Shown in pieces: positions 15,344-64,000 of a stretch of 64,000 nt of DNA. The stretch is from an uncultured Clostridium sp. GTDB taxonomy: Bacteria > Bacillota > Clostridia > TANB77 > CAG-508. The notes under the pieces are model-generated. The model had not been told where the DNA came from. It searched no databases and saw only the letters and a list, made by a program, of their open reading frames with translations. Numbering within the stretch: the first letter of the stretch is position 1; each line of letters starts with the position of its first letter. Made by a program: the position numbers and the translations under genes. Location of the stretch: assembly GCA_930990555.1 (NCBI GenBank), contig CAKNPW010000003.1:1-64000 (forward strand), given 5' to 3'.

Positions 15344-16327
15344 TTATACTATTGGACTATTCCTAATCAATTCTTTTATGTATTTGTTGTTAATATGGGT
15401 ATATATTTCTGTAGTTTCTATATACTCATGTCCTAATACTTTTTGTATTGTTCTTATATCTATATTTCCATATAGATATAGTAAAGTTGCACATGTATGT
15501 CTTAATTTATGAACAGAAAGATTTTTATAATCCAATCCAGCTTGTTTAAAAGCATTTTCTATTATTACTTGTACTGCTCTAATTGATATCCTAGTTTTTC
15601 TTGAACTTAAAAATAATGCTCTTTCAGAGTGCTGTTCGTCTGGAATTATTAATTCAGGGCTAATTCTATTTTTTAGATATTCTTTAATTGCTTTTAAACT
15701 TATTTCATTTAAATATAACACCCTTTCCTCTCTTCCCTTTCCTAATATCGTAATTTTATTTTCATTTATATCATTAATATCAATACTAACTAATTCTGCT
15801 ACTCTTATGCCTAAGTTTAAAAATAAAGTAACAATACAATAATTTCTAAGAAAAAATTTATCATCTTTGTTATTATAAGTATCTGTTAATATTTTTTTAC
15901 TTTCCTCTAGCGATAAATATTTAGGAAGGCTTTTTTCTCTTCTTAAGCATTTTAAATTTTTTGCTGGATTTTCTTTTAATATTTTATTTTTTTCACTAAA
16001 ATAATAAAACAAGTGTCTAATACAACAGATTTTTTTAGATATTGTATTAGATTTATTTATTGTACTTAAATAAGATATGTAATTTTCAATATGTACCTTT
16101 CTTACTTTTTTTAAAATATCTATATCAAGATCAGAAATATCCATATCAGTATTTTCTTTTATTTTAAATTTTACTGCAATATATTTTAAAAAATTTCTTA
16201 AAACAATATTTTCTTCCTTCATTGAAGAGGGAGATCTATTTAGAACTACAATATAGTAATTTAACATTTCATTAAGAAAATCTGGATTTTTATCAAAATT
16301 TATTTTTATTTCTTTACTTCTATACAT
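15344..16327 (-). CDS. Tyrosine recombinase (second of pair)
   Basis: XerC/D-like site-specific recombinase, about 327 residues, normal for phage- and ICE-type integrases with a SAM-like N-terminal domain. Catalytic residues are visible: Arg in NLGIRVAELVS, His and Arg in KLRHTCATLLY, His in LGHEYIETTEIYTH, with the Tyr nucleophile in that last motif. ATG 16327 is preferred because GGAGGGGAGAG precedes it; an upstream TTG at 16342 overlaps the site. It is co-directional and almost contiguous with a small gene and a second recombinase, and probably catalyses excision or integration together with it. Confidence 0.92.
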   Translation of the reverse strand: MYRSKEIKINFDKNPDFLNEMLNYYIVVLNRSPSSMKEENIVLRNFLKYIAVKFKIKENTDMDISDLDIDILKKVRKVHIENYISYLSTINKSNTISKKICCIRHLFYYFSEKNKILKENPAKNLKCLRREKSLPKYLSLEESKKILTDTYNNKDDKFFLRNYCIVTLFLNLGIRVAELVSIDINDINENKITILGKGREERVLYLNEISLKAIKEYLKNRISPELIIPDEQHSERALFLSSRKTRISIRAVQVIIENAFKQAGLDYKNLSVHKLRHTCATLLYLYGNIDIRTIQKVLGHEYIETTEIYTHINNKYIKELIRNSPIV

Positions 16328-16344
16328 ATCTCTCCCCTCCAATC

Positions 16345-16605
16345 TTAAGCTGTTTTTTCTATTATTTTATAATAAGTATCTATTGCTGGATTTTGTATTC
16401 CATCTTTACACTCATTAAGTATTTGATTATATGTATCACGAATTATACTCGTTTGTAGTTCTAATTCTTTATCAATATTAGCATTATTAGAAAAAGAAAA
16501 ATTTTCAAAAGTGTTTAAATAAAATTCTAAGCTTCTTAGAATTAAATCAACTTGACAATCTAGTAATTCTAAAGTATTTCTATGAATCTTATTTTCATTA
16601 TTCAT
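16345..16605 (-). CDS. Small helical protein between the recombinases
   Basis: 86 residues, predicted all-helical, no named family. It is placed like the small third protein of Tn554-type or recombinase-trio elements, which helps two tyrosine recombinases work, but sequence similarity to such proteins is not shown here. Its last residues (IIEKTA) echo the C-terminus of the upstream recombinase (KIEKTA), from a short identical DNA stretch at both gene ends. AAGGAGA precedes the start. Confidence 0.7.
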   Translation of the reverse strand: MNNENKIHRNTLELLDCQVDLILRSLEFYLNTFENFSFSNNANIDKELELQTSIIRDTYNQILNECKDGIQNPAIDTYYKIIEKTA

Positions 16606-16622
16606 TTAAAAATCATCTCCTT

Positions 16623-17606
16623 CTATGCTGTTTTTTCTATCTTTTTTACATTAAAATCACTTAAAGGATTACTGTTCATAGCATTTTCTATTTGTTTATC
16701 TGCAACGTGTGTATAAATTTCAGTTGAGGTTATTCTAGCATGACCTAACATTTCTTTAAGTAAAAGTACATCTTGTTTTACATATATATAAGTTAGTGTA
16801 GCAAATGTATGTCTTAATGTATGAACAGAGAAGTCAAAATCATTTAATCCCATAAGTTCATAAGCTTTTTCTATTATATATTGGATAGTTCGTTTTGCTA
16901 GTCTTTCACCTCGTTCGCTTAAAAATAGTGCATTTGAATCAGTTTCAATTTTATTTCTATATCTTAGATATTCTTCTAATTGTTTTTTACAATTATCATT
17001 ATAATAAGCGTACCTATCTTTTTTTCCTTTTCCTCTTTTTATAAAAAGACAGTTTTCATCTAATATAATATCTTCGATATTTAAATTGTATAATTCAGAA
17101 AGTCTTATTCCTGTAGCTAAAAATAAGCTTATTATCATATTATTTCTAATAGAATTTCTACAATTTTTATTGTCAAAAACAGATTGAATCTTATGTGCAT
17201 TATCTAAACTTAAATATTTCGGCAATTTCGTTGTTCTTGTTATGTCATTGATTCCATAAGTTGGATTTTCTTCTTTTTTCAAGTTTGGGTTTGTTGAAAG
17301 TACCCAATTAAAAAATGAAGATATAGCATTAAGTTTATTTTCTCTTGTATTTGGATTATTTTCTAAATCATAACTTAAATGAACTAAATAAGCTCTAATA
17401 TCTGATGTTTCTATTTGCAAAACGACAAATATTCCAATATTTTTTAATTCAATATCTAAATCTTTATAATCTTTGTAAAATGACAAAAATTCATATACAT
17501 GATCCCTATAAACAGTAATTGTACCACTTGAAAAATTATGAGCTTTTAAGTAACTTAAAAAATATTTTAAAATATCTGGAATATTTTTAATATCTGTATT
17601 TTTCAT
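16623..17606 (-). CDS. Tyrosine recombinase (first of pair)
   Basis: 327-residue XerC/D-like recombinase. Core residues: Arg in ATGIRLSELYNL, His-x-x-Arg in VHTLRHTFATL, His in LGHARITSTEIYTH with the Tyr nucleophile. It differs strongly from its neighbour outside the catalytic core, so this is not a recent duplication. It is the first gene of a three-gene minus-strand operon with about 17-nt gaps. A strong AAAGGAG site precedes ATG 17606. Confidence 0.92.
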   Translation of the reverse strand: MKNTDIKNIPDILKYFLSYLKAHNFSSGTITVYRDHVYEFLSFYKDYKDLDIELKNIGIFVVLQIETSDIRAYLVHLSYDLENNPNTRENKLNAISSFFNWVLSTNPNLKKEENPTYGINDITRTTKLPKYLSLDNAHKIQSVFDNKNCRNSIRNNMIISLFLATGIRLSELYNLNIEDIILDENCLFIKRGKGKKDRYAYYNDNCKKQLEEYLRYRNKIETDSNALFLSERGERLAKRTIQYIIEKAYELMGLNDFDFSVHTLRHTFATLTYIYVKQDVLLLKEMLGHARITSTEIYTHVADKQIENAMNSNPLSDFNVKKIEKTA

Positions 17607-36208: not shown

Positions 36209-38038
36209 TTATCTACCACCACCAACTAAATAAGGCATTTCAAATTCTAATGGCTTAACATTTATTAATTGATGTCCTGAACCTACGAAGAATAAGCCAC
36301 GTCCTTTTTCTTTTTGGCTTAAAATTGCTTTTTCTTCTGTATTCAAATTATATAAGTTAACAACTTCTTCTAGGTCTTTTCCATCAATACCAAAGAAAAA
36401 CTTGTAAGTACTGTTATCAAGTAGAGCTTGTCCGTACTGTTTTACTTCTGGAGCTAAAAAATCTACTAAACTTTGTGTAATTGTAACTAATCCTGATTCA
36501 TATTTTCTCGCTCTCTTACAAAAGTTACGCATGAATTCGATTGATTGTGGTACTTTTTTGTCTATAAGCAAGTATGCTTCATCACAAAAAACTAAATCTC
36601 TTTCTCTTCTATCTTTAAAAGCTTGATCTTGACAATAACGTAAAATGTTAAAATATTGACATCTTTTTACGTTTTCAGAAGCTCCTTGTAAACTATAAAC
36701 ATCTAAGCAAATAAAATCAGAATCGAATTGTATTGTTGTATGTCCGTTAAATATTTCGCTGTTATTTCCTATTGCCATTTGCCTTAAAACTGCTCTTAAT
36801 TCTTCATATTCTTTTTGATGATTACTTTTGCCTTTTACTTTTTCTTCAAGTAAACTATATAAATCTTGCATAATTGGAAATTGAATAGTTTTAAAATTTG
36901 AAATATCTGTATCGTAATTTATTCCAAAACTTTTATAAAGTTCTTCCAAAGTTTCATTAAGTAAACTCATTTCAAGTGATGTAATTTCTGGATAATATAA
37001 TTTAAAAAAGGTAGTTAAGAAGTCTAAGTGTAAAGCTAATGCTGATTTTGTTGTATTGTATTCACTATCTTCTTCCTCATCTTCAAAGCCAGCTGTAGGA
37101 ACTGGATTTATTTGAAGTGGATTTATTCTTCCAACAAATTCTCCTTCTCCACCACTACAATCAATCCATTTTCCCCCTAACAATTTGCAAATTGGTCTAT
37201 ATTCTGATTCTGGATCTATTATCCATATTTTTGTTCCATTTAAGTACTCATTTAGCATAATCTTTTTTGCTAAGAAGGATTTACCAGAGCCAGAAGAACC
37301 TTCAATTATAATGTTTGAATTTGTCCTATCATTTCCTTTAAAGAAAAATGAAGGAGCTACCATTCTACCATTTTCATCTACTCCTATATAGTAACCTTCT
37401 GCGTCAATTAGTCCTGAACCTGAAAAAGGTAATCCTGAAAATAAAGCATTTAAGCTCATAGTTTTATTAGAAATATCTGTTATTTCTTTATAAGATGTAT
37501 CGTATGGAGCTGATTGTTTTAAAGCTTCTTTTTGTAAATATGCTGGAACTCTTGCTTTTAATCCCATACCAGCAACTCTGTTTTTTATCAATTTTACGTT
37601 GTTCTGAAAATCTTGGTCTGTTTCACCATTAGTTTTAAAGATAATTGAAAGATTAATGTACGGAATATTATCTACAGTAATATCTTTAATAATCCTTTCA
37701 GCTGAAGCTATCTTAAATTCGCACATTTGCCTTGTAGCTTCATTTTGTGTTGAGTTTAAAGTGTTTCTTAATGCTGTAATACCTTTTGAAACACCATCTA
37801 CATAAGCCTGAACATCTTCGATTGGTGTAACAGTTAAAGATACAGTAGTATTTGGAATATCTTTTAAATTACTTAACCAACCTAAATTTACAGTAGAAGG
37901 ATAACCAGCAACATATTGAAGTTTAGATGTGATTTCACCTAATTGTACTTTATTGTATTTAAGAACTATCCCTTGTGGAGTAATTAAATTTAGCAAGTCA
38001 TTATTTATTGGTATTTGCTCTATTTCTACTTTTTTCAC
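36209..38038 (-). CDS. virB4: VirB4-family conjugation ATPase
   Basis: About 609 residues; energises the type IV secretion channel. Walker A is GSSGSGKS (near residue 250), Walker B is DLVFCDEAYLLI, and the front part (APYDTSYKEIT...GSGLIDAEGYYIG) is typical of Gram-positive VirB4/TrsE. The ORF starts at the middle of the usual N-terminal domain; the missing front part is a separate gene at 44.1 kb. GTG 38038 is chosen because GGGAGGG lies before it, whereas ATG 38056 has no ribosome site. Driven by promoter P3. Confidence 0.92.
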   Translation of the reverse strand: MKKVEIEQIPINNDLLNLITPQGIVLKYNKVQLGEITSKLQYVAGYPSTVNLGWLSNLKDIPNTTVSLTVTPIEDVQAYVDGVSKGITALRNTLNSTQNEATRQMCEFKIASAERIIKDITVDNIPYINLSIIFKTNGETDQDFQNNVKLIKNRVAGMGLKARVPAYLQKEALKQSAPYDTSYKEITDISNKTMSLNALFSGLPFSGSGLIDAEGYYIGVDENGRMVAPSFFFKGNDRTNSNIIIEGSSGSGKSFLAKKIMLNEYLNGTKIWIIDPESEYRPICKLLGGKWIDCSGGEGEFVGRINPLQINPVPTAGFEDEEEDSEYNTTKSALALHLDFLTTFFKLYYPEITSLEMSLLNETLEELYKSFGINYDTDISNFKTIQFPIMQDLYSLLEEKVKGKSNHQKEYEELRAVLRQMAIGNNSEIFNGHTTIQFDSDFICLDVYSLQGASENVKRCQYFNILRYCQDQAFKDRRERDLVFCDEAYLLIDKKVPQSIEFMRNFCKRARKYESGLVTITQSLVDFLAPEVKQYGQALLDNSTYKFFFGIDGKDLEEVVNLYNLNTEEKAILSQKEKGRGLFFVGSGHQLINVKPLEFEMPYLVGGGR

Positions 38039-38075
38039 CTTTTTATTCCCTCCCATTTTTTATTTTTATAAAAAA

Positions 38076-40265: not shown

Positions 40266-43200
40266 TTAGAATCCTGTTTTTGGTAATACTTCCATTGTTG
40301 TTACAGGTTTATCAATTTTTAATTCTGCTATATCTAAAGTTGTTGTGGAATCAGCTTTAACTTCAAATGTAATATCTTTAGATAATTTATATCCTTCTGG
40401 AGCTTTTGTTTCTTTCAATAAGTAAATTCCTGTTCTTAATCCAGTTATATTTATCTTTCCGTTCTCATCTGTTGTATATTTACCAATTAGCTTATTTTCC
40501 GTTAGGTTTGTTAGTTCAAATTCTGCTCCTTGTAATGCTTTTTCTTCTTCTGAATCGTGCTTATATATGTCTACGTTACCTTTTTCATGTTCATTAGTAA
40601 TATTTACCGTCTTAACTTCTTTATCCTCTGTAAATTGAACCTCGTAAGTTTTATTGCTTAAATAGTAATTATCAGCTGTTTCTATCTCTTTTATAGTATA
40701 GACATTATCTATTGGAAGTTTTTTACTTGTTGCTATTCCCTCTTTATCTGTGATTACTGTATCAACTAAGTTTTGGTCTTTATCATATATTTCAAACTTA
40801 ACTCCTTCAAGTTTAATATTTTTGTCATCTAAATCTGTTTTATTGATTACAATAGTTCCTTTTTGTTTTTCATCTTCCACATTTAAAATAGTAGTTTCAT
40901 TGTTCTTTACTTCAAAATCAATACTATCAGATTTATTATAAAATTCTGGAGCTTCAATTTCCCTTAATTGATATTTACCAGTCCTTAAGTTTTCTATATT
41001 AATTTCACCATTTTCATTTGTTGTAACTGTATTTACAACCTTATCAAATTCATAAGAATAAATATCAAATTTTGCATTTGGTAAAACTAATTCTGGACTA
41101 TCTTTATCTACTTTTGTAATTTTAACATTACCTTTCTCGTGTTCGTTTCCAATTCCTAATGTTTGTATTTCTTTATCTTCATTAAATTTGACTTCTTGTG
41201 TTTCATTATTTAATATATAATTTTCTTTAGTTTCAACTTCTTTTACTGTATAAATATTGTCTATTGGAAGTTCTTTACTAATTGCTGTTCCGTCTTTATC
41301 TGTTACTACTGTATCAACTAAGTTTTGGTCTTTATCATATATTTCAAACTTAACTCCTTCAAGCATTATTTCTGGAATTTCTTCTGTATCTGCATTTCTG
41401 TTCATGTGTAATGGATAGTCTTGGTCAAATTTATAAATTTGTATTTGACCTTTTTTCTTTTCATTTTCTACTGTTAATTTTAGTGTTTGATTCCATGCTA
41501 GAACAAAAGGTGTTTCTTCATTATTTAATCTATAATTATCTAGTGTTTTTACTTCTTTTAAGATATACCTATCATAAGCTGGAAGTCTATGGCTTATTGC
41601 AATTCCGTTCTCATCTGTTGTCATTGTATCAATTTTAGTTCCATCTTCTTTGTAAATTTCAAATGTAACTCCTTCAAGTTTTGTATCTGGATTATCTAAA
41701 TCCACTTTTGTAACTTGTAACTGTCCTTTTTTTCTTTCATTTTCAAAGGTTAAATCTTTTATTTGATCTTCTTCTAATTCTATAGTTTTAGGTGTTTCAT
41801 TTAATTCGTATAAAATTCCAGTTTCGATTTCTTTTACTGAATAAGGGTTATACATTAATGGGAGTTTTGAACTAGTAGCTTCACCGTTTTCATCTGTTGT
41901 TAATGTATCTACTAATTTTCCATTTTTATCATAAACATTAAATTTAACACCTTGTAATTTAATTTTGTTGTTATCCAAATCAACCTTAATAACTTTTACT
42001 TGTCCTTTTTTCTTTTCGTTTTCTACTACTACATCAGTAGTTTCTTTATCTTTTACTTCAAAATCAACTGGCTCTGCTAATTTATAAAATTCATTTGTTT
42101 TTGTTTCTCTTAATTGATATTTGCCTGTCCTTAAATTTTCTATGCTGATTTCACCATTTACATCTGTTGTAGCATGACCTATAACAGTATCAAATTCATA
42201 AGAATAAACATCAAATTCTACTGCACCTAATTTTGTATCATGGTCATCTTTATCTACTTTTGTAATTTTAGCATTTCCTTTTTTATGCTCATTTGTTATA
42301 TTTAATATTTGTTGATCTCCATCAACATTATTAAATGTAACTTCATAAGTTTCAGTATTTAAATAATAATTATCTAATGTTTCAACTTCCTTTACTGTAT
42401 AAGTTGTATCAACAGGTAATCTCATACTTATAGCTTTGCCATTTTCATCTGTTGTTATTGTTTGTACTTTATTTCCACTATCATCATATATTTCAAACTT
42501 AACTCCTTCAAGCATTATTTTGTCTGGAAGATTACTAGTATCTTCTACATAAGAAGTAGGTGTTGAAGTAAAATCTTGATCATACTTATATATTACTATT
42601 TGTCCTTTTTTCTTTTCATTTTCTATAGTATATTCTGATACAGGTTTTTCTTGCTCCCAAAAAACTTCTACATCTGTATCTGGTGCTAAAGTATACCACT
42701 TGTTTGTTTCTTTTTCTTTTAATGTATAAGTACCTGTTCTTATATTAGGTATTGTTATTTCACCATTTTCATCAGTTCTAACGGTATCTATAACTTTATC
42801 AAATTCTTGTGAGTATACATCAAATAAAACATGTCCCATTTGAATTTTATGGTTATCTTTATCAATTTTATTTATTTTTAAAGTACCCTTTTTATGTTCA
42901 TTTGTTAAATTCATTGTTGCATTTTGGTTATAAATTAGGCTTTGTTGTTGTTCTTGATTGTTTGGAACATAATTATCATTAGTTCTTGTTTCTTTTACTG
43001 TATAATTACCTGCATATAAATCTGAAAATGTTACTTTTCCATTATCATCTGTAGTTTTAGTTTGTAAAACTTGACCATCTTTTAACAATTGAAATTCTGT
43101 ATCTGTAATTCCTCCACCAGTTTCAGAATCTGTTTTGTTTATTGTAATAGATGAAACATTTCCTTTAAATTGCTCAGTTGCATTTGAATTAGCAATTTCA

Positions 43201-44093
43201 TAAGGATCTCCAGTTAAAGCATAATTTTGCCACTCTTCATTTGGTGTTGCACCAAATAGTATTGGGGTAGTTTTACATCTTGCATTTTGTACTACTACTA
43301 TTCCATTTACATCTGTTGTAATTGATAATTCTGGTATAGAAATTTTTATAGTTTGTGTACCATTAAAACTATATTGTTCGCCATTATTCAAATTAAATAC
43401 TTTTGTTCCTGCTGGGAAATTTGCTATAGCTACATCAAAACTTGCAAGCTCTACTGGTGAACTAACATTATAATTTTGTGAATAATAATTTATTCCTCCA
43501 ATATTATCTTTGTATAAATCACCTGTTTTATTAATATCAACTCTTGCTTCTTGATAAGTTTGACTACCATTTTTTCCTATATTTACTAGGTTTATTATAG
43601 CTTGCTTAATTGCTTCTCCTTCAGAATCTGCACCTTTATAGTAAGAATATGGGTCTGTTCCATATAATATACAATATACTGCTTGCTTTGTTGCAACAAA
43701 GGCGTCTTGTTCGTTCCAAACTCCCATATCTTGTGGAGTTTTATAAGGATAACTATTAGTAATTACTCTCCATATTTGTTGGTCATTAACTGCACCAGTA
43801 ACATTTACAGTATATGCAGGAACTGTACCGACTCCGTGTCTATCTTTATTTAAACAAAAAGCAGGATATTCAACTCCATCTTTTGAATAAACAACAAAAT
43901 CTGTAACTATATAATACCAAGCATTTTTATTACTATTCCAGTATTGTAAATGTCTTCCACAATCGCCTTTATCGTATATATATGCAGAATCTACTGAAAA
44001 ACTTGCATTGGAAAATGAAGGCAATACTATTTGAAATAGCATAAAAAATATTATTAATAATACAGTAGTATTTTTAAATAGTTTTTTACTCAT
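40266..44093 (-). CDS. Giant thioester/Cna-B adhesin ending in LPKTGF (1275 residues)
   Basis: Signal peptide at about 10-30, then an N-terminal thioester-type domain (YPAFCLNKDRHGVGT with Cys, ATKQAVYCILYGTDP with Gln) related to that of the 700-residue adhesin, then about ten Cna-B/SpaA repeats, each starting near K(G)xxxIxKxDxD and containing a LxGVxFxIYD-like segment. Such repeats fold with intramolecular isopeptide bonds, making a stiff stalk. Like its paralogue it ends exactly at LPKTGF without a transmembrane anchor. Likely recipient-cell or surface attachment factor of the element. AAAGGAGG precedes ATG. Confidence 0.92.
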   Translation of the reverse strand: MSKKLFKNTTVLLIIFFMLFQIVLPSFSNASFSVDSAYIYDKGDCGRHLQYWNSNKNAWYYIVTDFVVYSKDGVEYPAFCLNKDRHGVGTVPAYTVNVTGAVNDQQIWRVITNSYPYKTPQDMGVWNEQDAFVATKQAVYCILYGTDPYSYYKGADSEGEAIKQAIINLVNIGKNGSQTYQEARVDINKTGDLYKDNIGGINYYSQNYNVSSPVELASFDVAIANFPAGTKVFNLNNGEQYSFNGTQTIKISIPELSITTDVNGIVVVQNARCKTTPILFGATPNEEWQNYALTGDPYEIANSNATEQFKGNVSSITINKTDSETGGGITDTEFQLLKDGQVLQTKTTDDNGKVTFSDLYAGNYTVKETRTNDNYVPNNQEQQQSLIYNQNATMNLTNEHKKGTLKINKIDKDNHKIQMGHVLFDVYSQEFDKVIDTVRTDENGEITIPNIRTGTYTLKEKETNKWYTLAPDTDVEVFWEQEKPVSEYTIENEKKKGQIVIYKYDQDFTSTPTSYVEDTSNLPDKIMLEGVKFEIYDDSGNKVQTITTDENGKAISMRLPVDTTYTVKEVETLDNYYLNTETYEVTFNNVDGDQQILNITNEHKKGNAKITKVDKDDHDTKLGAVEFDVYSYEFDTVIGHATTDVNGEISIENLRTGKYQLRETKTNEFYKLAEPVDFEVKDKETTDVVVENEKKKGQVKVIKVDLDNNKIKLQGVKFNVYDKNGKLVDTLTTDENGEATSSKLPLMYNPYSVKEIETGILYELNETPKTIELEEDQIKDLTFENERKKGQLQVTKVDLDNPDTKLEGVTFEIYKEDGTKIDTMTTDENGIAISHRLPAYDRYILKEVKTLDNYRLNNEETPFVLAWNQTLKLTVENEKKKGQIQIYKFDQDYPLHMNRNADTEEIPEIMLEGVKFEIYDKDQNLVDTVVTDKDGTAISKELPIDNIYTVKEVETKENYILNNETQEVKFNEDKEIQTLGIGNEHEKGNVKITKVDKDSPELVLPNAKFDIYSYEFDKVVNTVTTNENGEINIENLRTGKYQLREIEAPEFYNKSDSIDFEVKNNETTILNVEDEKQKGTIVINKTDLDDKNIKLEGVKFEIYDKDQNLVDTVITDKEGIATSKKLPIDNVYTIKEIETADNYYLSNKTYEVQFTEDKEVKTVNITNEHEKGNVDIYKHDSEEEKALQGAEFELTNLTENKLIGKYTTDENGKINITGLRTGIYLLKETKAPEGYKLSKDITFEVKADSTTTLDIAELKIDKPVTTMEVLPKTGF

Positions 44094-49514: not shown

Positions 49515-50387
49515 TTAATGTTTCTTCATCATACTAGCAACTATACCTACATTATGTACTATTTTTCCAGCTCTACCATCAGTTCCACCATAAGTAATTA
49601 GGAATTGTGATAAAATTCCAGGTGTTTTTAAAGCCATAGTTGATGTTGCTAACGCTAAAATAATATGGGTACTAAGTAAAAATGTTATGGATAATCTTAA
49701 CAATGTAAGTTGTACTATTACAGTAAATGCAACTTTGATAAATTGTTGTATATATCCTTTAAATACTCCTCCATCTGCATTTAATAATCCTACACAAGCA
49801 AATGGTATTCCTAATCTTAAAATTAATACTTCGATACCTCTACTTAAATTTTGGAAATATACCAAAACGTATTGAATTGCAATAATAACATAGAAAATCA
49901 TTCCCATAGAGTTTAATAAAGCATTTACCCAATCTTTTTGAGTATTGAATAAATCTGCAAGACCACTTGTATCTCCAAATGCTGAATTTGTTATAGATTG
50001 ATATAATGAGTTCATTATATTTACAAAAGTTTCATATAAAAATCCAAAAGATACCATAATAATTAGTGCTTTTACAAATCCTAAAAGTACTTGAAAAGGT
50101 GAATTATCTGGATCTCCATTGCTCCATGCAAAATACGTTTCTACCATTTTTTTAACAAAAAGCATTATAAGTATAGAAATTGCGAAAATGTATATCGCAT
50201 GATAGAGATTTACTATATTAAATGTGTTCCTATTTACCATATCATAGAAGTTTGTTTCAACTGCAAAAGCGTCATAGAAGAAATTATTTAATAAAGTTGT
50301 TACAAAATTTAAGCACATTTGCACTACATAGGACATCAAATTATTTGAAAGTGAAAGTACTGAACTTGTTAGCATTGAACCTGACAT
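49515..50387 (-). CDS. VirB6/TrbL-like polytopic channel protein
   Basis: 290 residues with about six membrane spans (e.g. LYHAIYIFAISILIMLFVK, VLLGFVKALIIMVSFGFLYE, LNSMGMIFYVIIAIQYVLVYF, FIKVAFTVIVQLTLLRLSI). Matches the layout of TrbL/VirB6, the inner-membrane core of type IV channels. AAGGAGGAAG precedes the ATG. It follows the 248-residue single-span protein and the VirB2-like gene. Confidence 0.82.
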   Translation of the reverse strand: MSGSMLTSSVLSLSNNLMSYVVQMCLNFVTTLLNNFFYDAFAVETNFYDMVNRNTFNIVNLYHAIYIFAISILIMLFVKKMVETYFAWSNGDPDNSPFQVLLGFVKALIIMVSFGFLYETFVNIMNSLYQSITNSAFGDTSGLADLFNTQKDWVNALLNSMGMIFYVIIAIQYVLVYFQNLSRGIEVLILRLGIPFACVGLLNADGGVFKGYIQQFIKVAFTVIVQLTLLRLSITFLLSTHIILALATSTMALKTPGILSQFLITYGGTDGRAGKIVHNVGIVASMMKKH

Positions 50388-51730: not shown

Positions 51731-54301
51731 TTAATTAAAACTACTATTGATTAATTGTCTTTTCCAGTTTAGTTCTTTTTCTCTTCTTTTGTTTTCTTCT
51801 TCTTTTTCCTTTTCTTTTTTCATTTTTTTATCAATATCCCATAAAAGAGCTTGTGATACACTTCTTTCTGGTCTTTCATCTTCTCTAATTTGTCTAATTT
51901 TTGTATTCCATGCTGGATCTCCTAAACCTAATACTTTATTAAAATACCATTTTGATAAATCTGGAGCATAGGTCATGCAAGGATTTATTCCAGACACCAT
52001 AGTAAGCAAATATGGTCTTTGTATTCTTAATACTTCATCTGGAGTAAGTAATTCTCTTTTACTTAAATTATGTGATTTAGATTCATTTACTGCTCCACCA
52101 CTAGAAGAATTGCTTTCACTCCAAGTGGAAGTTGTATATGTTCCCAATTTTTCACTAATTTTCTTTGCTGTATCAGCATTAGAAGTTTTAAGGTATGTCC
52201 AAACATGACAGTTATCTAAAATGTTTGGTGCTACTTTATCTCCGTATTTATCGTTTAATTGTGAAAATGATTGCAAGAATAAATTAAAACGTATTCCTCT
52301 ACCACCACCAACAGTTAAGAAGCCACCGAAGTTATTTATCGCACTAAAGTTACCAAACTCATCAAGTATAAAGTTTACTCTATTATTTAATCTTCCACCT
52401 TGTGCGTCGGCAACTTCACATAGTTTTGTATAGCATTGATTAACAAATAATGAACATAGTCCATAAAATGTTGTTTTTTCATCTGGAAGTATCATATATA
52501 AAGCTGTTTTTTGGGAATTGAATTTAGTAACATCAATATCGCTTGTAGCCAACATATCTGCAATATATGGATCTGTGAAAATTGAAAGTGTTGCTAAAGC
52601 TGATGTAAAGAAAGAACCTCTTGTCTTAGAAGGTGCAATTTTTGCACTTTGGAATTGAGTAACTGCTGGGTGGTCTTGTGGCAATTTATCTAAAAATGTA
52701 TCAATTAACATTGTTTTATCAGATTGCTCAACACACATTCTTGCAATAAATTCATATACATTTCTTAAATTTTGAAGTTCTGGGTGTGGCTCTAATTCTA
52801 ATAAATTTTTCCAATTTGATACTATTTCTAAAATTCCATCAGAATCATCTTCATTTAGTTCTTTAAATTTTTCTTGCAAATTTTCATAATTTTCATTAAT
52901 AGATTTATTTAATTCATTATTAAAATCTTTAGCTGTAAGTAGAAAATCTAAACTTTCAGAATTAGTATTGTTTTCAATTATATAATTTAATATCTTTTCT
53001 TTTGCATTTTTAAAATATTCATTTTTTAAATTCTTTCTTTCTTCTTTAGATAATCTATAATAGTCTTTTTTGTAATCTTCATACTTTCTTTTTCTAAATT
53101 CTTCAATCGTATCTGCTTCTATTTCTTCCCCATATTCATTTTTCTTCTTTGATTCTGGAGAATTTAAATATTTTTGATAATCTTCACAAATTTTTTCTTT
53201 AAATAAAGTCCAGATTTTTTGGTCATTTACTCTATCTGAATTTTCCATTACAACTGCCATAATCCCACATTTTTCAACTGCTTGCTCTCCATTATACCAA
53301 ATAGCTTCTTGATTACCTTTCTCACCTACTAATGATTTAACAATATCAGAACAATAAGAAACTGCTTTTGGAATATCGTTTTTATCAATCATATCAATAA
53401 CAGGTTGTAAGAAGTTATACTTAGAACTTTTTAGAGGATTTTTAAAATCTAATGTTACAACATTATATCCTAATTCTCTTAGCATACCAGATGTATATTC
53501 AAATAATTCTCCTTTCGGATCTGATAAAATCATACTTTCACCAGCTAAGCCTGTATTTGCGATTGTTTCTAAAACTAAATTTCTTGTTTTACCTGAACGT
53601 GTTGCTCCAACGGTTAAAGAGTGCATATCATCTCCAATAAAGTAAATATCTTCTACTTTTCTAGTTTTTATAAACGGAAATTGTTTTACAAAATTTATAA
53701 CAGTTCTATCCTTTTTCCCTACTGCGAGTCCACCTTTTTTGAATATTTTAGTTTCAAAATCTGGCTTTTTAGGTTCTAAATTTTCAGAAGAAAGTTTTGG
53801 AACAGGCTTTCCCTCATCAATTTCTTTCATTAATTTTTCTTCATCTTTTCTTTGAGTTTCGGACATTTTCATAAGTTTATGAATTGTGGGATTTTCAGGA
53901 TCGAATGTATTTTTATACAATTCTTTTTGATTATCTATCTGTTTCTTGGTAAGCCACCATGATGAACCAAATTGTGTTTGATTTTTTACTGGATATGGTA
54001 TTTTTATATCTGGTGTTACTTCATATAATTTAGATTTATAATCATTTAGTTTAAATAGCTTAAATGCCGTAGACAAGATTAAAATCATAAATGCAAGTAA
54101 GATAATTATAAACATTTGGATTCCATCTTGATTTTCAAATATCGTTTTAAACATATTGCCAATATTAAAATTCAATAATTTTAGCGGTGTTCTTAGAAAT
54201 ATTTCCATCAGACAATATGCAATTATAACTGATAAAACAGAAGCAAGTATAGTAGAAATAATAATCATTGTAAGTTTAGTTCTAAATTTTTTGTTTCCCA
54301 T
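51731..54301 (-). CDS. virD4: VirD4/TraG type IV coupling protein with large insertion
   Basis: 856 residues. Two N-terminal membrane spans (about 11-35, 62-83), Walker A GATRSGKT (232-239), SDPKGELFEYT, and Walker B FILDEFGNFSAI (about 644-654). It feeds relaxase-DNA and protein substrates to the channel. Between about 375 and 505, in the region of the all-alpha substrate-recognition domain, lies a Lys/Glu-rich helical insertion of roughly 130 residues, so the protein is longer than usual (about 600). ATG 54301 follows AAGGAGG; an upstream ATG lies in the promoter. Confidence 0.93.
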   Translation of the reverse strand: MGNKKFRTKLTMIIISTILASVLSVIIAYCLMEIFLRTPLKLLNFNIGNMFKTIFENQDGIQMFIIILLAFMILILSTAFKLFKLNDYKSKLYEVTPDIKIPYPVKNQTQFGSSWWLTKKQIDNQKELYKNTFDPENPTIHKLMKMSETQRKDEEKLMKEIDEGKPVPKLSSENLEPKKPDFETKIFKKGGLAVGKKDRTVINFVKQFPFIKTRKVEDIYFIGDDMHSLTVGATRSGKTRNLVLETIANTGLAGESMILSDPKGELFEYTSGMLRELGYNVVTLDFKNPLKSSKYNFLQPVIDMIDKNDIPKAVSYCSDIVKSLVGEKGNQEAIWYNGEQAVEKCGIMAVVMENSDRVNDQKIWTLFKEKICEDYQKYLNSPESKKKNEYGEEIEADTIEEFRKRKYEDYKKDYYRLSKEERKNLKNEYFKNAKEKILNYIIENNTNSESLDFLLTAKDFNNELNKSINENYENLQEKFKELNEDDSDGILEIVSNWKNLLELEPHPELQNLRNVYEFIARMCVEQSDKTMLIDTFLDKLPQDHPAVTQFQSAKIAPSKTRGSFFTSALATLSIFTDPYIADMLATSDIDVTKFNSQKTALYMILPDEKTTFYGLCSLFVNQCYTKLCEVADAQGGRLNNRVNFILDEFGNFSAINNFGGFLTVGGGRGIRFNLFLQSFSQLNDKYGDKVAPNILDNCHVWTYLKTSNADTAKKISEKLGTYTTSTWSESNSSSGGAVNESKSHNLSKRELLTPDEVLRIQRPYLLTMVSGINPCMTYAPDLSKWYFNKVLGLGDPAWNTKIRQIREDERPERSVSQALLWDIDKKMKKEKEKEEENKRREKELNWKRQLINSSFN

Positions 54302-54325
54302 TTTCTCTTTTCCTCCTTGACATAA

Positions 54326-54414
54326 ATGGTAAAACAAAAAATAAGTACTTTTTTACGAAAAAATTGCAAAAATATTGCAATTTTCATTAAAATATATACC
54401 TTTAAATATTTAAA
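54326..54414 (-). promoter_or_regulatory. Element-type promoter P6 (virD4)
   Basis: Palindrome at 54401-54414, two repeats (TGCAATATTTT then TGCAATTTTTT on minus) and 25 bp to TACCAT (54331-54326), the weakest -10 of the set. Confidence 0.65.
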
Positions 54415-57081: not shown

Positions 57082-57538
57082 TTATATTTACTCCTCTCTT
57101 CATATTTATAACATTTATGAAAAATTTATTATCTAATTTTTCTCTTAAATATTGAGTTAATTTAACACCTTTAATTATAAATTCTGTAGAAGTACAAAAT
57201 TTATCTACATTAATCTTTTCGTATTTATCATTTAAATTATTAAAATAATATATTGTATCTTCTATTTTCCCAATATATAATCTTTCTTCTTTATCTTGAA
57301 AAAAAACATCTCCTTTATTATCAATTATTACTTTTTCTGGATTCACATTAAAAAATTTATTGTCTACACAAATACATAAATCTTTCCATAAATTTTTATA
57401 TGTAAATGTATCTAATAAGTTAATTTCATTCTTAGAAAGATATTCTTTTCCTTCTAAAGCTTCTTTTTCTTCTTCTTTATTTTCAAAATTTTCTAAGAGT
57501 TTTTGAAATATATCTTTCAATTTTTCCTTTAAATTCAT
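57074..57538 (-). CDS. Unknown protein, 154 residues
   Basis: Helical start (LKDIFQKLLENFENKEEEKEALEGKEYL) then beta strands (KVIIDNKGDVFFQDKEERLYIGKIEDTIYYF); no membrane span, no tail. It overlaps the coiled-coil gene by 8 nt and the sortase gene by 4 nt, so all three are coupled. Function unknown. Confidence 0.75.
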   Translation of the reverse strand: MNLKEKLKDIFQKLLENFENKEEEKEALEGKEYLSKNEINLLDTFTYKNLWKDLCICVDNKFFNVNPEKVIIDNKGDVFFQDKEERLYIGKIEDTIYYFNNLNDKYEKINVDKFCTSTEFIIKGVKLTQYLREKLDNKFFINVINMKRGVNING

Positions 57539-58158
57539 TCTGTTATTTCATCTCCTACAACACATAATCTAAGATTTCCTTTATTTTTAACGCAAGTTAT
57601 TAATGTAATTTTATTTTCAGGAGTATTTTCAATTACATATACATCTTTATCTTTAATTGTTTTTACTTCTGATACCTTATATTTTTTAGTTTGATATTTA
57701 GTTTGATATGTAATTTCATCACCTTGTCTTACTTTATCTAAATTTTCAAAATAATTTTTTTCATATCCTCTATTATGACCAGCAATAGCAACATTTCCTT
57801 CAAGATAGGCTGAATCTGTAAAATGTCCTAAATAGTTATTTAATGTATCCATATCCGTACCTTCTTTAACTGGAGCATTTGTAAGTGAAATAGAAGGAAT
57901 TGTTAAATATGCAATTACTCCCTGTTCTTCTTCTTGATTATCATCTGCTGTATTTGTTATACTCATTGTATTAGTATCAATAATAGATTCATCTTTATCT
58001 TTATTGTTAAAACAATTTACTAATAAAACACTCATAATAGTAATAGCTATGATTATTAATAAAATAGATATTGAAACAATGATTTTCTTCTTCTTTGATA
58101 ATTTTCCTTTTTCATTTTTCTCTTTCTCTTTTTTCTCTTTCTCTTTTTTCTTAAACAA
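57535..58158 (-). CDS. Sortase
   Basis: 207 residues: basic N-terminus, membrane span (about 26-48) and extracellular catalytic domain. Catalytic residues: His128 in AIAGHNRG, Cys189 in ITLITCV, Arg197 in NLRLCVVG. Transpeptidase that joins LPxTG-type proteins to the wall or to pilins; the obvious substrates are the two LPKTGF adhesins of the element. Subclass not certain. TTG start 58158 is supported by GGAGG 9 nt upstream. First gene of the P7 transcript. Confidence 0.88.
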   Translation of the reverse strand: MFKKKEKEKKEKEKNEKGKLSKKKKIIVSISILLIIIAITIMSVLLVNCFNNKDKDESIIDTNTMSITNTADDNQEEEQGVIAYLTIPSISLTNAPVKEGTDMDTLNNYLGHFTDSAYLEGNVAIAGHNRGYEKNYFENLDKVRQGDEITYQTKYQTKKYKVSEVKTIKDKDVYVIENTPENKITLITCVKNKGNLRLCVVGDEITE

Positions 58159-59743: not shown

Positions 59744-61456
59744 TTATCTATCAAATCCCCAGTCAAAACCAGATGAATTACGCATTTTTTTAATCCATTC
59801 TCTTTTAGCTTCTTTTGACATATTTTTAAAACTTTCTTTAAGTCTTTCATTTCTTGCTCGATTTACAGTATTTTCTTCATCTAACGTAGAAAATACTGAT
59901 TTAATTAAATTCTTCATTTCATTTCTTTTTTCATAATCTATCTGACTTTGTTTCCTATTTATTTCATATTCTGCTTTTTTATTTTCATATTCTTCTTGCC
60001 TTTTTTTCCAATTTTCTTCTTTTACTTCACTTTTAGTATTTTTTATAAATTGTAAAATTTGATTTCCTATCTTAGAATACATAGTATCTTTAGCTCTTTG
60101 TTTTACTCTTTCATAATCAGTAGAATTTTCTATATCTGCTAAATATTTACTTGCTTCTATCTCGGAATTAATATATTCATAAAACATTTCTTTACATTCC
60201 ATTGAAGTATTTAAAATTAATTTAGAAATATCATCTATTGCCTGCTTTACTTCTGGTGTTTGATATTGATATTTAAATCCTTTTTCAAAATTATTTGTAA
60301 TATTTTTTAAATTTTGAAGTTTAGATGATATTATTTCAAAATTTTCTTCTTTAAATTTATAATCTAAAATCCTTTCTGGTATTTCTTCTGGCATAACTTC
60401 TTTTAAAAGATTACTAATTTTTAAATCCTCTTCTGTTTTTGTTTTTATTATTTTTTCAAGTTCATAACTATTTTTTGCAATACCTATTTCTTTAAAATCT
60501 TTTAAAAATGAAGCTGTATCAGATAGAGTATTTTCCTTATATAAAATTCCTTTTTTTCCATTGTTTTTAAATTCTAATTTATCTTTATACCATTTCTTTA
60601 TGTTATTAAATTTTCTTGTTTCATACCATTTTCTAACCTTTTTTATCTCTGTAAAATTATTTGGATTCTCTTTATCGTATAAATATATTTTTTGTCCTAT
60701 TTTTAAATTTTGGGTTAAATCTTTAATAAAATTTTCTTCTTTTGATGTGTCTACTACGTTTAATTCAAGATTTTTTATATTTAAGCTTTCTGTTAAATTT
60801 CTTTTATATCTTTCTAATTCATCTTTTGCTAAAATTGATATTTCTTTTTTTGAAACATTTTTTATGTTGTATAATTCTTGTAATTTATTAGAAAATATTT
60901 CTTTAGCAAATTCTTTCCTAATATTTTTATAATTTATAAATGGCTTTTTAGTTGTATTCTCATAATCTTTATTATTCCAAAAATCAATATGAACATGAGG
61001 GTGTCCTTCTTTTGCATGAAAAGAAGCCACAAACTCAAAATTTTCTATTGGAATTTCTGGTTTGACAGATTTTCTTATTTCTTCTATTTTATGTTCAACA
61101 AGTTCTTTAAATTTTTCTCTAGTATTATATTGTTGCTCTAATGCGTCATCACCCTCTAAACTTATAATTGTTTTGAAAACATCACCATCATTTTTTGTAA
61201 TCTCCCCTACTCTTTTTCTAATATCACTTAAAGACATTTTTTCGACATCAAGAGGAATACCTTTTTTATCATATATAGTTCCAAATAGTGCATGTTCACT
61301 ATATTCATTTTTAACAGCTTCTGCTTTTGTAGCAATGTAATCAATATGACATCTATCAATATGTGCTTGTAATCTATTATCTTTTGCTTGGTTAGTTCGC
61401 TTACTGTATATTTCTTGTTTATTAATCCATTTGAATACAACTGGAGCATTATTCAT
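59744..61456 (-). CDS. Relaxase, MobP3/MOBP-like
   Basis: About 570 residues. Nicks and binds the DNA at oriT and pilots it into the recipient. The metal site is HAKEGHPHVHIDFW (HxHxH at about 152-156), and the region around FVASF and FINYKNIRKEFAKEIF fits MobP-type relaxases of Firmicutes; the catalytic Tyr in the N-terminal part is probably Tyr17 or Tyr40. The C-terminal 300 residues are helical. ATG 61456 overlaps the stop of the upstream zinc-ribbon gene. A candidate oriT with an RP4-like nic is 700 nt upstream. Confidence 0.9.
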   Translation of the reverse strand: MNNAPVVFKWINKQEIYSKRTNQAKDNRLQAHIDRCHIDYIATKAEAVKNEYSEHALFGTIYDKKGIPLDVEKMSLSDIRKRVGEITKNDGDVFKTIISLEGDDALEQQYNTREKFKELVEHKIEEIRKSVKPEIPIENFEFVASFHAKEGHPHVHIDFWNNKDYENTTKKPFINYKNIRKEFAKEIFSNKLQELYNIKNVSKKEISILAKDELERYKRNLTESLNIKNLELNVVDTSKEENFIKDLTQNLKIGQKIYLYDKENPNNFTEIKKVRKWYETRKFNNIKKWYKDKLEFKNNGKKGILYKENTLSDTASFLKDFKEIGIAKNSYELEKIIKTKTEEDLKISNLLKEVMPEEIPERILDYKFKEENFEIISSKLQNLKNITNNFEKGFKYQYQTPEVKQAIDDISKLILNTSMECKEMFYEYINSEIEASKYLADIENSTDYERVKQRAKDTMYSKIGNQILQFIKNTKSEVKEENWKKRQEEYENKKAEYEINRKQSQIDYEKRNEMKNLIKSVFSTLDEENTVNRARNERLKESFKNMSKEAKREWIKKMRNSSGFDWGFDR

Positions 61457-61625
61457 TTGCAACACTTCTTTCTAATTTTTCGCCATTTAAATTTATAACT
61501 TTTATCTTGCCTTGTGCGATATATGTATCTAAACATATATCACAGTAGTTTTTATTATCTTTTTTATCATAAAAATATACATTAAGTGGATCTATCTTAT
61601 CTCCACAAAAACTACAAAATTTCAT
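61449..61625 (-). CDS. Zinc-ribbon microprotein (58 residues)
   Basis: From ATG 61625 to TAA 61449. CSFCGDK near the start and YCDICLDTYI form two CxxC pairs for a single zinc; the rest is basic (QGKIKVINLNGEKLERSV). It lies between the MobC-like and relaxase genes, overlaps the relaxase start and follows the previous gene by 4 nt, so it is an intact member of the mobilisation operon and may be part of the relaxosome. Confidence 0.72.
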   Translation of the reverse strand: MKFCSFCGDKIDPLNVYFYDKKDNKNYCDICLDTYIAQGKIKVINLNGEKLERSVANE

Positions 61626-61629
61626 ATTA

Positions 61630-62103
61630 CTAAATTTCTCCTTTATCCAAATTTGCTAATTTTTCAAAATCAGTTTTTATGTCATAATTTTTAATTGCTT
61701 TATAACCTATTGCGTTTGCTTCCTTAATTGCATTTCTCATAAATTCTTTTTCATCATCAGAATTGAATAAAACTGACAAAATTTTTGCTTGTAAGTAAGA
61801 GTTAGATAAATTGTTTTTTAGTCCTTTTACTTCTAATGCAATTTGTCTTTCAAATTTACTATTCAATTCTTGTCTTATTACATTTCTTAAAATTTCCGTA
61901 ATCATAGTAATATTATCTTTATTTGCTTGCACACTAAAATATTCTTTGAGAATATTGTTCATTGTTTCTGAAAAAGATGTATATTGTTTTTCGGATTGAT
62001 AATTTATTAATGTTTTATTTAATTTATCTGAAACGTAAAAAGTTTTTTGTGTTGCTTTAGCTTTTTTATATTTTGTTACTTTTTGTTCCTTTTTCTCTTC
62101 CAT
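61630..62103 (-). CDS. MobC-like relaxosome accessory protein (157 residues)
   Basis: A basic N-terminus, TQKTFYVSDKLNKTLINYQ followed by SFSETMNNILKEYF, fits a ribbon-helix-helix DNA-binding domain, then a long helical tail region. Together with its place directly after the presumed oriT and before the relaxase, this suggests a relaxosome accessory protein that opens or bends oriT DNA. ATG 62103 follows GGGAGG; extending to 62160 would run into the oriT. Confidence 0.75.
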   Translation of the reverse strand: MEEKKEQKVTKYKKAKATQKTFYVSDKLNKTLINYQSEKQYTSFSETMNNILKEYFSVQANKDNITMITEILRNVIRQELNSKFERQIALEVKGLKNNLSNSYLQAKILSVLFNSDDEKEFMRNAIKEANAIGYKAIKNYDIKTDFEKLANLDKGEI

Positions 62104-62129: not shown

Positions 62130-62270
62130 TATTTAAGTAGTGAACGCAGGATAAACGCACCGTGCCGTGCGTAGAAACAGCTAGAAGGGCAAGCCTTCTA
62201 CTATAATGTAAATCTCAAAAAAGCACATTGTTTCTACTGCTCAAAATGTTTACAAGGGAACATTTTGTAT
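62130..62270 (-). other. Probable origin of transfer (oriT)
   Basis: On the minus strand an inverted repeat ACGCAC-6-GTGCGT (62172-62155) is followed after TT by ATCCTG-C, the nic consensus of RP4-type (MOBP) oriTs; predicted nicking lies between 62147 and 62146. Further stem-loops (GAAGG/CCTTC near 62187-62199; AAAATGTT/AACATTTT near 62245-62268) surround it. It sits directly upstream of the accessory protein and relaxase genes. The relaxase type and the motif agree. Confidence 0.72.
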
Positions 62271-62273
62271 TAG

Positions 62274-63413
62274 TTATTTTTGTAATAAATTCAAAAATTT
62301 TTCTAATTCTTCATCAGTTTTAAATTTAAAAGATACTGTTTTACTTTTTGGTCTTGCTTGAATTTTTAGATTCTCACCAAAAATATTTTGGCATTTTTGT
62401 TCTATTTCCATATAAATTGGTGGTAATTTTTCATTTTCTTCCTCTGGTTTTACTTCTTCTTCAACTTTAGTTGAAGGTGTATCATTTTCTATTAGTTCTA
62501 ATGCTTTTTGATATTGTTTTTCTGGATCTTTTATTGATAATAATGTTTTACAATGTTTATAGGTAAGCTTTTTTTCTTTAAGTAAATCTAAAACTCTGCT
62601 ATCTAAATCCAAAATTCTTAAAATATTCGTTACTGTACTTCTTGCTTTTCCCAATTTTTCTGCTAATTCTTCTTGAGTTAATTCGTATTTACTCATAACA
62701 TTATTTAATGCAATAGCTTTTTCTATTGGATTTAGATCTTTTCTTTGAAAATTTTCTATTAAAGATATAAAATCTAAATCTTCTTCCCCATTATTTATTA
62801 CCTGACATTTAATTTTATCCCAATTTAGTGTTTTGCAAGCCCTCCATCTTCTCTCTCCAGCAATTATCATGTAATGATTTTCTTCTGTTTTTGTTACTAT
62901 AATAGGACTAAGTAATCCATAATGTTTAATTGATTTTGCTAATTCATTTATTTCAGTTTCATTAAATTCTTTTCTTGCTTGTTCTTGATTTGGATATATA
63001 CTGTTAATATCAATTTCTTCAAAATTATTATTTTCTTCCGAATGTTTACCTATAAACATTTCCTCCATATTGCCTTTTTCTTCTGTATTGATAGATTCTT
63101 CTTCAATTATTTCATTTTCAAAAGGCAATTCCTCTCTATTCTCTTCTACTAAATTTTCATAATTTTTATCTTGAATGTTTGTTTTTTGATTACCTTCTTT
63201 ACTTTTTCCTTCAAATAATTTGTCAATATCTTCAACAAATAAAACTCTTGAATCTACCTTTTTTAAAACTTCATTATAACTTAATCCTTCATCAACAAAT
63301 TTTTTAGCTTCGTCCATTGCAATTTGTAATCTTTGAAGATTATTTCTTATCAATGGAATAAAAGTTCCTCTAGGATTATTTTTTATTGGTGTTCCATTTT
63401 TTATGTTTTCCAT
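62274..63413 (-). CDS. parB: ParB/Spo0J-like partition protein
   Basis: About 379 residues. The ParB N-terminal domain (IDINSIYPNQEQARKEF, KSIKHYGLLSPIIV, IIAGERRWRACKTLNW) is complete, including the CTP-binding GERRW-type motif, and is followed by an HTH (ELTQEELAEKLGKARSTVTNILRIL). A long N-terminal extension and an acidic linker are unusual. No ParA is visible unless the TadZ-like protein serves. In elements it can act as regulator or stability factor. ATG 63413 follows GGAGGA. Confidence 0.9.
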   Translation of the reverse strand: MENIKNGTPIKNNPRGTFIPLIRNNLQRLQIAMDEAKKFVDEGLSYNEVLKKVDSRVLFVEDIDKLFEGKSKEGNQKTNIQDKNYENLVEENREELPFENEIIEEESINTEEKGNMEEMFIGKHSEENNNFEEIDINSIYPNQEQARKEFNETEINELAKSIKHYGLLSPIIVTKTEENHYMIIAGERRWRACKTLNWDKIKCQVINNGEEDLDFISLIENFQRKDLNPIEKAIALNNVMSKYELTQEELAEKLGKARSTVTNILRILDLDSRVLDLLKEKKLTYKHCKTLLSIKDPEKQYQKALELIENDTPSTKVEEEVKPEEENEKLPPIYMEIEQKCQNIFGENLKIQARPKSKTVSFKFKTDEELEKFLNLLQK

Positions 63414-63448
63414 ACTAATCATTCCTCCTTGTTTTTTTATTTATAAAA

Positions 63449-63883: not shown

Positions 63884-64000
63884 TTAAAATTTAAATTCAA
63901 TTTTATTTTTGTTTAGAGAAAGTTTACATGCGAACTTTTTTCCATTTTTAGAAATAAATCCATCTATCTTCTTTGTTTCTCCATTTTTTAGTAATTCTTT
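63884..64000 (-). CDS. DNA topoisomerase (type IA, TopB-like), C-terminal end only
   Basis: Only the last 38 residues are in the window, running to a stop at 63884. ELLKNGETKKIDGFISKNGKKFACKLSLNKNKIEFKF matches the C-terminal end seen in topoisomerase III-like enzymes (G.T..I.GF.SK.GKKF.A.L...). Such enzymes are common in conjugative elements, where they may unlink replication intermediates. Identification rests on a short motif. Confidence 0.6.
   Translation of the reverse strand, partial: KELLKNGETKKIDGFISKNGKKFACKLSLNKNKIEFKF

Follow-up and report, generated by a model that had tools for sequence, protein, structure and literature searches.

The window, the whole stretch of 64 000 nucleotides that was analysed, lies in a 95-kb contig from a genome of 2 Mb, and its conjugation genes belong to an integrative and conjugative element (ICE). 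The site considered here lies between the gene for a ParB-family protein and a small accessory gene; the relaxase gene comes next, followed by genes for VirD4, a pilin-like protein of the T4SS, TrbL, VirB4 and other conjugation proteins. Asparaginyl-tRNA synthetase-like and rho genes are found from approximately 75 kb, and no direct-repeat att sites were found in a weak test that scanned each flank separately. The conjugative element also contains genes for SpaH-like LPXTG pilins and for a sortase (window 40266–44093, 22777–24879 and 57535–58158), which possibly play a role in cell contact. The features to which we refer below are as follows.

15344..17606, minus strand: two tyrosine recombinases (15344–16342 and 16623–17606), probable integrases, on the left side of the element
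36209..38056, minus strand: VirB4-type conjugation ATPase (below the curated cut-off, E 1e-115)
49515..50387, minus strand: TrbL-like mating channel protein
51731..54337, minus strand: VirD4-type coupling protein (CD1115 family)
59744..61465, minus strand: relaxase, MobL/MobP3-like, with conserved Y37 and H144..H151xH153
61630..62103, minus strand: accessory relaxosome protein, probable ribbon-helix-helix, with homologues at the equivalent place in relatives
62146..62152, minus strand: predicted nic, ATCCTG|C, kept as [A/T]TCCTG|C in relatives
62147/62146, minus strand: predicted nick, placed by analogy with RP4-type sites, between G (3' OH) and C (5' end of the strand that is transferred)
62155..62172, minus strand: hairpin 2, the putative relaxase recognition hairpin, ACGCAC / loop GGCACG / GTGCGT, arms covarying
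62182..62200, minus strand: hairpin 1, TAGAAGG / loop CTTGC / CCTTCTA, with a compensatory change in the second copy
62171..62237, minus strand: possible outer pairing around hairpin 1, of GTAGAAACA (62229–62237) with TGTTTCTAC (62171–62179)
62242..62267, minus strand: palindrome CAAAATGTTCCCTTGTAAACATTTTG, also present at the second oriT
62274..63422, minus strand: ParB-family protein, between the two oriT copies and at the equivalent place in relatives
63884..64000, minus strand: topB (topoisomerase), 3' part (full gene G000:C3:63884–66001)

The relaxase and its accessory protein

The preliminary description placed the site beside a 'MobC-like' gene and a MobP-type relaxase gene, which is right in kind, although both family labels are inexact. 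The relaxase passes the cut-off of Pfam MobL (PF18555), with 32.3 bits against 28.5 (one relative reaches 37.7), but scores 108.8 bits against NCBIfam MobP3 (NF041499), below the cut-off of 150, as do the relatives at 131.8–148.1; the low MobP3 score counts against the reading of the site as an oriT of this kind, and the MobP-type label is approximate. Its score for the classical Relaxase family (PF03432) is also below cut-off. In 12 relatives Y37, H144 and H151 are invariant and H153 is nearly so, giving the catalytic tyrosine and three histidines of a relaxase linked to a MOBP oriT of the ATCCTG|Y type. The relaxase profile had no sequence match in the PDB; in an AlphaFold2 model of the protein (mean pLDDT 79), residues 1–194 align with 18 relaxase structures, including TrwC, MobA, TraI, NES and MobM, at Z values of 7.3–9.0, compared with 5.8 for the next unrelated fold, and the predicted fold thus matches that of the conjugative relaxases.

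The label 'MobC-like' fails for the accessory protein, which gave no match to Pfam MobC even at E 1; its homologue in G137 instead matches RHH_3 with an E of 4e-4, slightly below the curated cut-off, and it is probably a ribbon-helix-helix protein. The listed GTG start at 62160 would make the gene cross the nic, while the ATG at 62103 fits the homologues.

The candidate origin and its conservation in relatives

Read directly, the minus strand from 62172 to 62146 is ACGCAC GGCACG GTGCGT TT ATCCTG|C, exactly the repeat, spacing and nic that had been claimed, and the longer stretch is TAGAAGGCTTGCCCTTCTA GCTGTTTCT ACGCAC GGCACG GTGCGT TT ATCCTG|CGTTC. The window contains the composite hairpin and nic pattern once, and none of 100 dinucleotide shuffles contains it. 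By itself the heptamer ATCCTGY is about as frequent as chance predicts, with 11 occurrences in the window against 8.1 expected, and the signal is therefore carried by the hairpin and its context. A descriptor consisting of two hairpins and [A/T]TCCTGC has one match in the window and one in 100 shuffled windows combined, and the 141-nt region, folded as single-stranded DNA, has a z of −3.8.

The extent first given for the site, 62141–62173, contains the motif, but the predicted functional unit is larger, approximately 62146–62267, with the second hairpin and the palindrome. The possible outer pairing is retained in the second copy as TAAAAA/TTTTTA, on a comparison of two copies of one element. 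The palindrome, ATGTTCCCTTnnAAACATTTT, is present in the 95-kb contig at the two oriT copies only, and several relatives have another palindrome at the equivalent place, in both copies; it is probably a binding site for the ParB-like or the accessory protein of the element.

Relatives of the relaxase, at 26–46% identity, are present in the same GTDB family, and upstream of their accessory and relaxase genes lies a unit of hairpin 1 (with a CTTG loop), 8–10 nt, hairpin 2 and [A/T]TCCTG|C. In a more distant group with relaxases of 411–416 amino acids the loops are CCACG or CTACG and the nic is TTCCTG|C. The distance from hairpin 2 to the nic is one base longer in the present element than in most relatives, which we count against the reading as an oriT. 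The predicted nick at 62147/62146, an assignment by analogy, agrees with the family alignment. The description of the site as 'RP4-type' holds for its nic but not family-wide, where the nic is [A/T]TCCTG|C or, in one subgroup, TTCTTG|C; this MobP3-like subgroup (L105:10788, L106:8786 and L107:8186) keeps the two-hairpin layout, with TTCTTG|C replacing TCCTG|C.

The sequences of the hairpin arms vary among elements with their complementarity retained. In a chimera control, hairpins with their own arms gave 7.0 (hairpin 1) and 7.6 (hairpin 2), compared with 2.3 and 1.6 when arms were swapped between elements; because swapped arms lose the pairing that own arms keep, the arms covary. The inverted repeat directly 5' of ATCCTG|Y that characterizes MOBP origins of this type is thus present, conserved and covarying. 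A covariance model (R2), trained on seven other copies with this element excluded, recovered the window site with 34.7 bits (E 3.5e-6) and the second copy with 36.1 bits; an earlier model, R1, had been dropped when its automatic alignment missed hairpin 2. The named relatives found by pattern search were mostly metagenome-assembled genomes of uncultured gut Clostridia. Searches with the relaxase found no relatives in viral contigs or in named genome contigs and two weak relatives in plasmids, and the oriT DNA had no match in plasmid records.

An intergenic, hairpin-rich stretch upstream of genes could also be an RNA or transcription signal, such as a terminator or leader. We consider this highly improbable: there is no Rfam match and no T-run after hairpin 2, the most conserved part is the single-stranded TCCTGC 3' of the hairpin, the two copies face away from the genes between them, and copies occur in unrelated gene contexts. 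The position and layout that diverged relatives share, the covarying arms, the detection by a model from which the element was held out and the intact relaxase with its predicted fold all support the reading as an oriT; judged from these sequence and model data, the site is with high probability a real oriT, one of two outward-facing copies.

The outward-facing pair and copies without a relaxase

The second copy, found with R2 and a scan, and absent from the preliminary description, is inverted and lies at approximately G000:C3:66015–66136 on the plus strand, about 4 kb from the first, 2 kb past the edge of the window and just upstream of topB, with its nick predicted after 66135. Between the two copies lie parB and topB, and both predicted nicks point outward, on opposite strands. 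Palindrome, hairpin 1, hairpin 2 and nic are common to the two, the DNA outside is unrelated, and hairpin 1 shows a compensatory difference, TAGAAGG/CCTTCTA in copy 1 and TAGAGGG/CCCTCTA in copy 2. In sequence, a single element with one relaxase carries two oriT copies.

A divergent pair around parB, with or without topB, was also found in G275, G367, G137, G199, G020, G175, G182, G281 and G264. The predicted nics face outward in all 10 pairs from relaxase-bearing elements, at spacings of 1.5–5.7 kb; G182 and G281 are near-identical, which leaves about nine independent elements. Core identity is 74–100% within a pair (mean 91.5) and 70% on average between elements. Counted against the generality of the arrangement are a single copy in G009 and G199:C39 and a topB-side copy only in G375, and the pair is thus not universal. 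Short-read contigs often stop at these repeats: G181:C15 ends, and G341:C145 starts, right at the oriT unit, which suggests unresolved identical copies and makes the pair counts lower bounds. In another locus (L076:7510–8726), with no relaxase detected, a divergent pair surrounds a truncated ParB fragment, and would be what is left of such a paired arrangement or a derivative of it that lacks a relaxase.

The predicted nicks, which face outward on opposite strands in all 10 pairs, with ParB and often topB between them, would also suit a model in which the excised circle is replicated bidirectionally by strand displacement from two origins and transfer uses one copy; relaxase-dependent replication of an excised ICE is known in ICEclc (PMC6561031). 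Against this, topB was not found near the pair in G020, G175, G182, G281 and G264, and we think this model unlikely.

Copies of the oriT extend well beyond the elements that encode a relaxase. In first-look searches, R2 sites were detected in 119 of 390 family genomes and the relaxase profile, at the cut-off used, in 22, so that hitchhiking elements lacking a relaxase can be counted. No relaxase of this family was detectable around the high-scoring copies in L076 and L078–L094, several of these stretches stopping at contig ends. Such orphan copies (L078, L080, L082, L085, L086, L089 and L091–L094) are often beside large serine recombinases, a proximity seen in many genomes, and one neighbourhood includes a ParB-HTH protein. 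They are probably small mobilizable or integrative elements that would use the relaxase of an ICE in trans.

In a comparison of flanks among 98 oriT copies across loci, the long upstream homology of orphan pairs usually stops 5–8 nt past the nick, and the downstream homology begins at the other edge of the core. A reading of the nic as the physical end of the orphans, as in Helitron or IS91-like elements, was rejected, since the conserved oriT core itself ends 5–8 nt past the nick and the best-studied orphan group has no matching terminus at its other end. We read the pattern, from sequence comparison, as flanking DNA exchanged at the oriT, which is not proof of transposition and could reflect relaxase-mediated or homologous recombination.

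The orphans also bear on whether the relaxase-side copy might be the only working oriT, the topB-side copy, alike in sequence, having a second-strand, replication or regulatory role. The flanks of the two copies differ here, and the two oriTs of ICEclc differ in role, replication of the excised form having depended on oriT1 only (PMC6561031). In 10 elements, however, the second copy retains hairpins, loop and nic and shows compensatory changes, and in L082 and L091 the oriT adjoins a ParB-like gene and points away from it, the topB/parB-side orientation that is expected if a topB-side copy works alone. A non-transfer role for that copy therefore seems rather doubtful to us.

Proposed transfer and comparison with known systems

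Taken together, we regard it as very probable that the site is oriT1 of an ICE, cut by the relaxase, transferred through the element's own VirD4/VirB4-type channel and paired with an inverted oriT. Sequence, layout, conservation, covariation, divergent pairing and the fold prediction come directly from the present analysis, and from them we infer nicking, strand transfer, use of both copies and any role in replication. The relaxase and the small ribbon-helix-helix-like protein would recognize the hairpin beside the nic on the minus strand; the relaxase would cut ATCCTG|C at 62147/62146 and remain on the 5' end via its tyrosine, and the cut strand would enter the recipient through the element-encoded secretion channel, accessory and relaxase genes first. 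The second oriT, about 4 kb off beyond parB and topB, would be nicked the opposite way and take the element's other half in first, so that the parB–topB block would enter last from either oriT. Transfer could probably start from either copy, and the excised circle may also be replicated by strand displacement from a nick at one or both. A more specialized proposal, which we put forward only speculatively and think improbable, is that the pair is a dedicated dual-initiation device: one relaxase would nick opposite strands at the two flanks of the parB–topB block, the excised element would unwind outward both ways for bidirectional replication or delivery of both strands, and the block, with ParB bound to it, would serve as an anchor. 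In NAH7, partition proteins can act at conjugation regions (PMC12421886).

The MOBP origins of the RP4/R64 type share the hairpin 5' of the nic, ATCCTG|C and the position upstream of mobilization genes; they differ in that the nic of the present family may also be TTCCTG|C or TTCTTG|C, in its extra conserved hairpin with a CTTG loop, and in its relaxase, which scores as MobL/MobP3 and not as classical Relaxase. The MOBL system of pLS20 likewise has a Pfam MobL relaxase and a Firmicutes host, but its nic, GAATCGGGGGCCGG|, lies beside another inverted repeat (PMC5313138), and this difference in nic sequence counts against a pLS20-type oriT here. The distant MobP3 plasmid pEYLC1.2 of Exiguobacterium acetylicum shares the layout, with two hairpins and then TTATCCTGCC upstream of CopG-mobP3, although one copy was found and its nic strand is opposite to the relaxase gene. 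This plasmid (L225, NZ_CP082335.1) is listed as non-mobilizable by MOB-suite despite its MobP3 relaxase, VirD4 and oriT-like unit.

Paired origins are already known from IncX plasmids and ICEclc. The IncX plasmids R6K, R485 and pOLA52 have two oriTs within long inverted repeats, in 2012 called unique to IncX (PMC3402527), and IncX plasmids carry topB (PMC5955891); two inverted oriTs served by one relaxase, with topB on the same backbone, are thus common to both systems. The present pair differs in belonging to a Clostridia ICE, as copies of about 120 bp that flank parB/topB, one of them beside the relaxase genes, and in not being plasmid replication origins. ICEclc of Pseudomonas, an ICE whose two oriTs are both used for transfer by one relaxase (PMC5714925, PMC3395598), is of another host phylum, and we liken it by arrangement rather than by layout or sequence. 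The strongest new part of our results is not the single site, a candidate oriT for a large group of ICEs that has hardly been studied and belongs to uncultured gut Clostridia, but the conserved outward pair and the abundance of orphans; the pair offers a way to ask why some conjugative elements, R6K and ICEclc among them, retain two origins.
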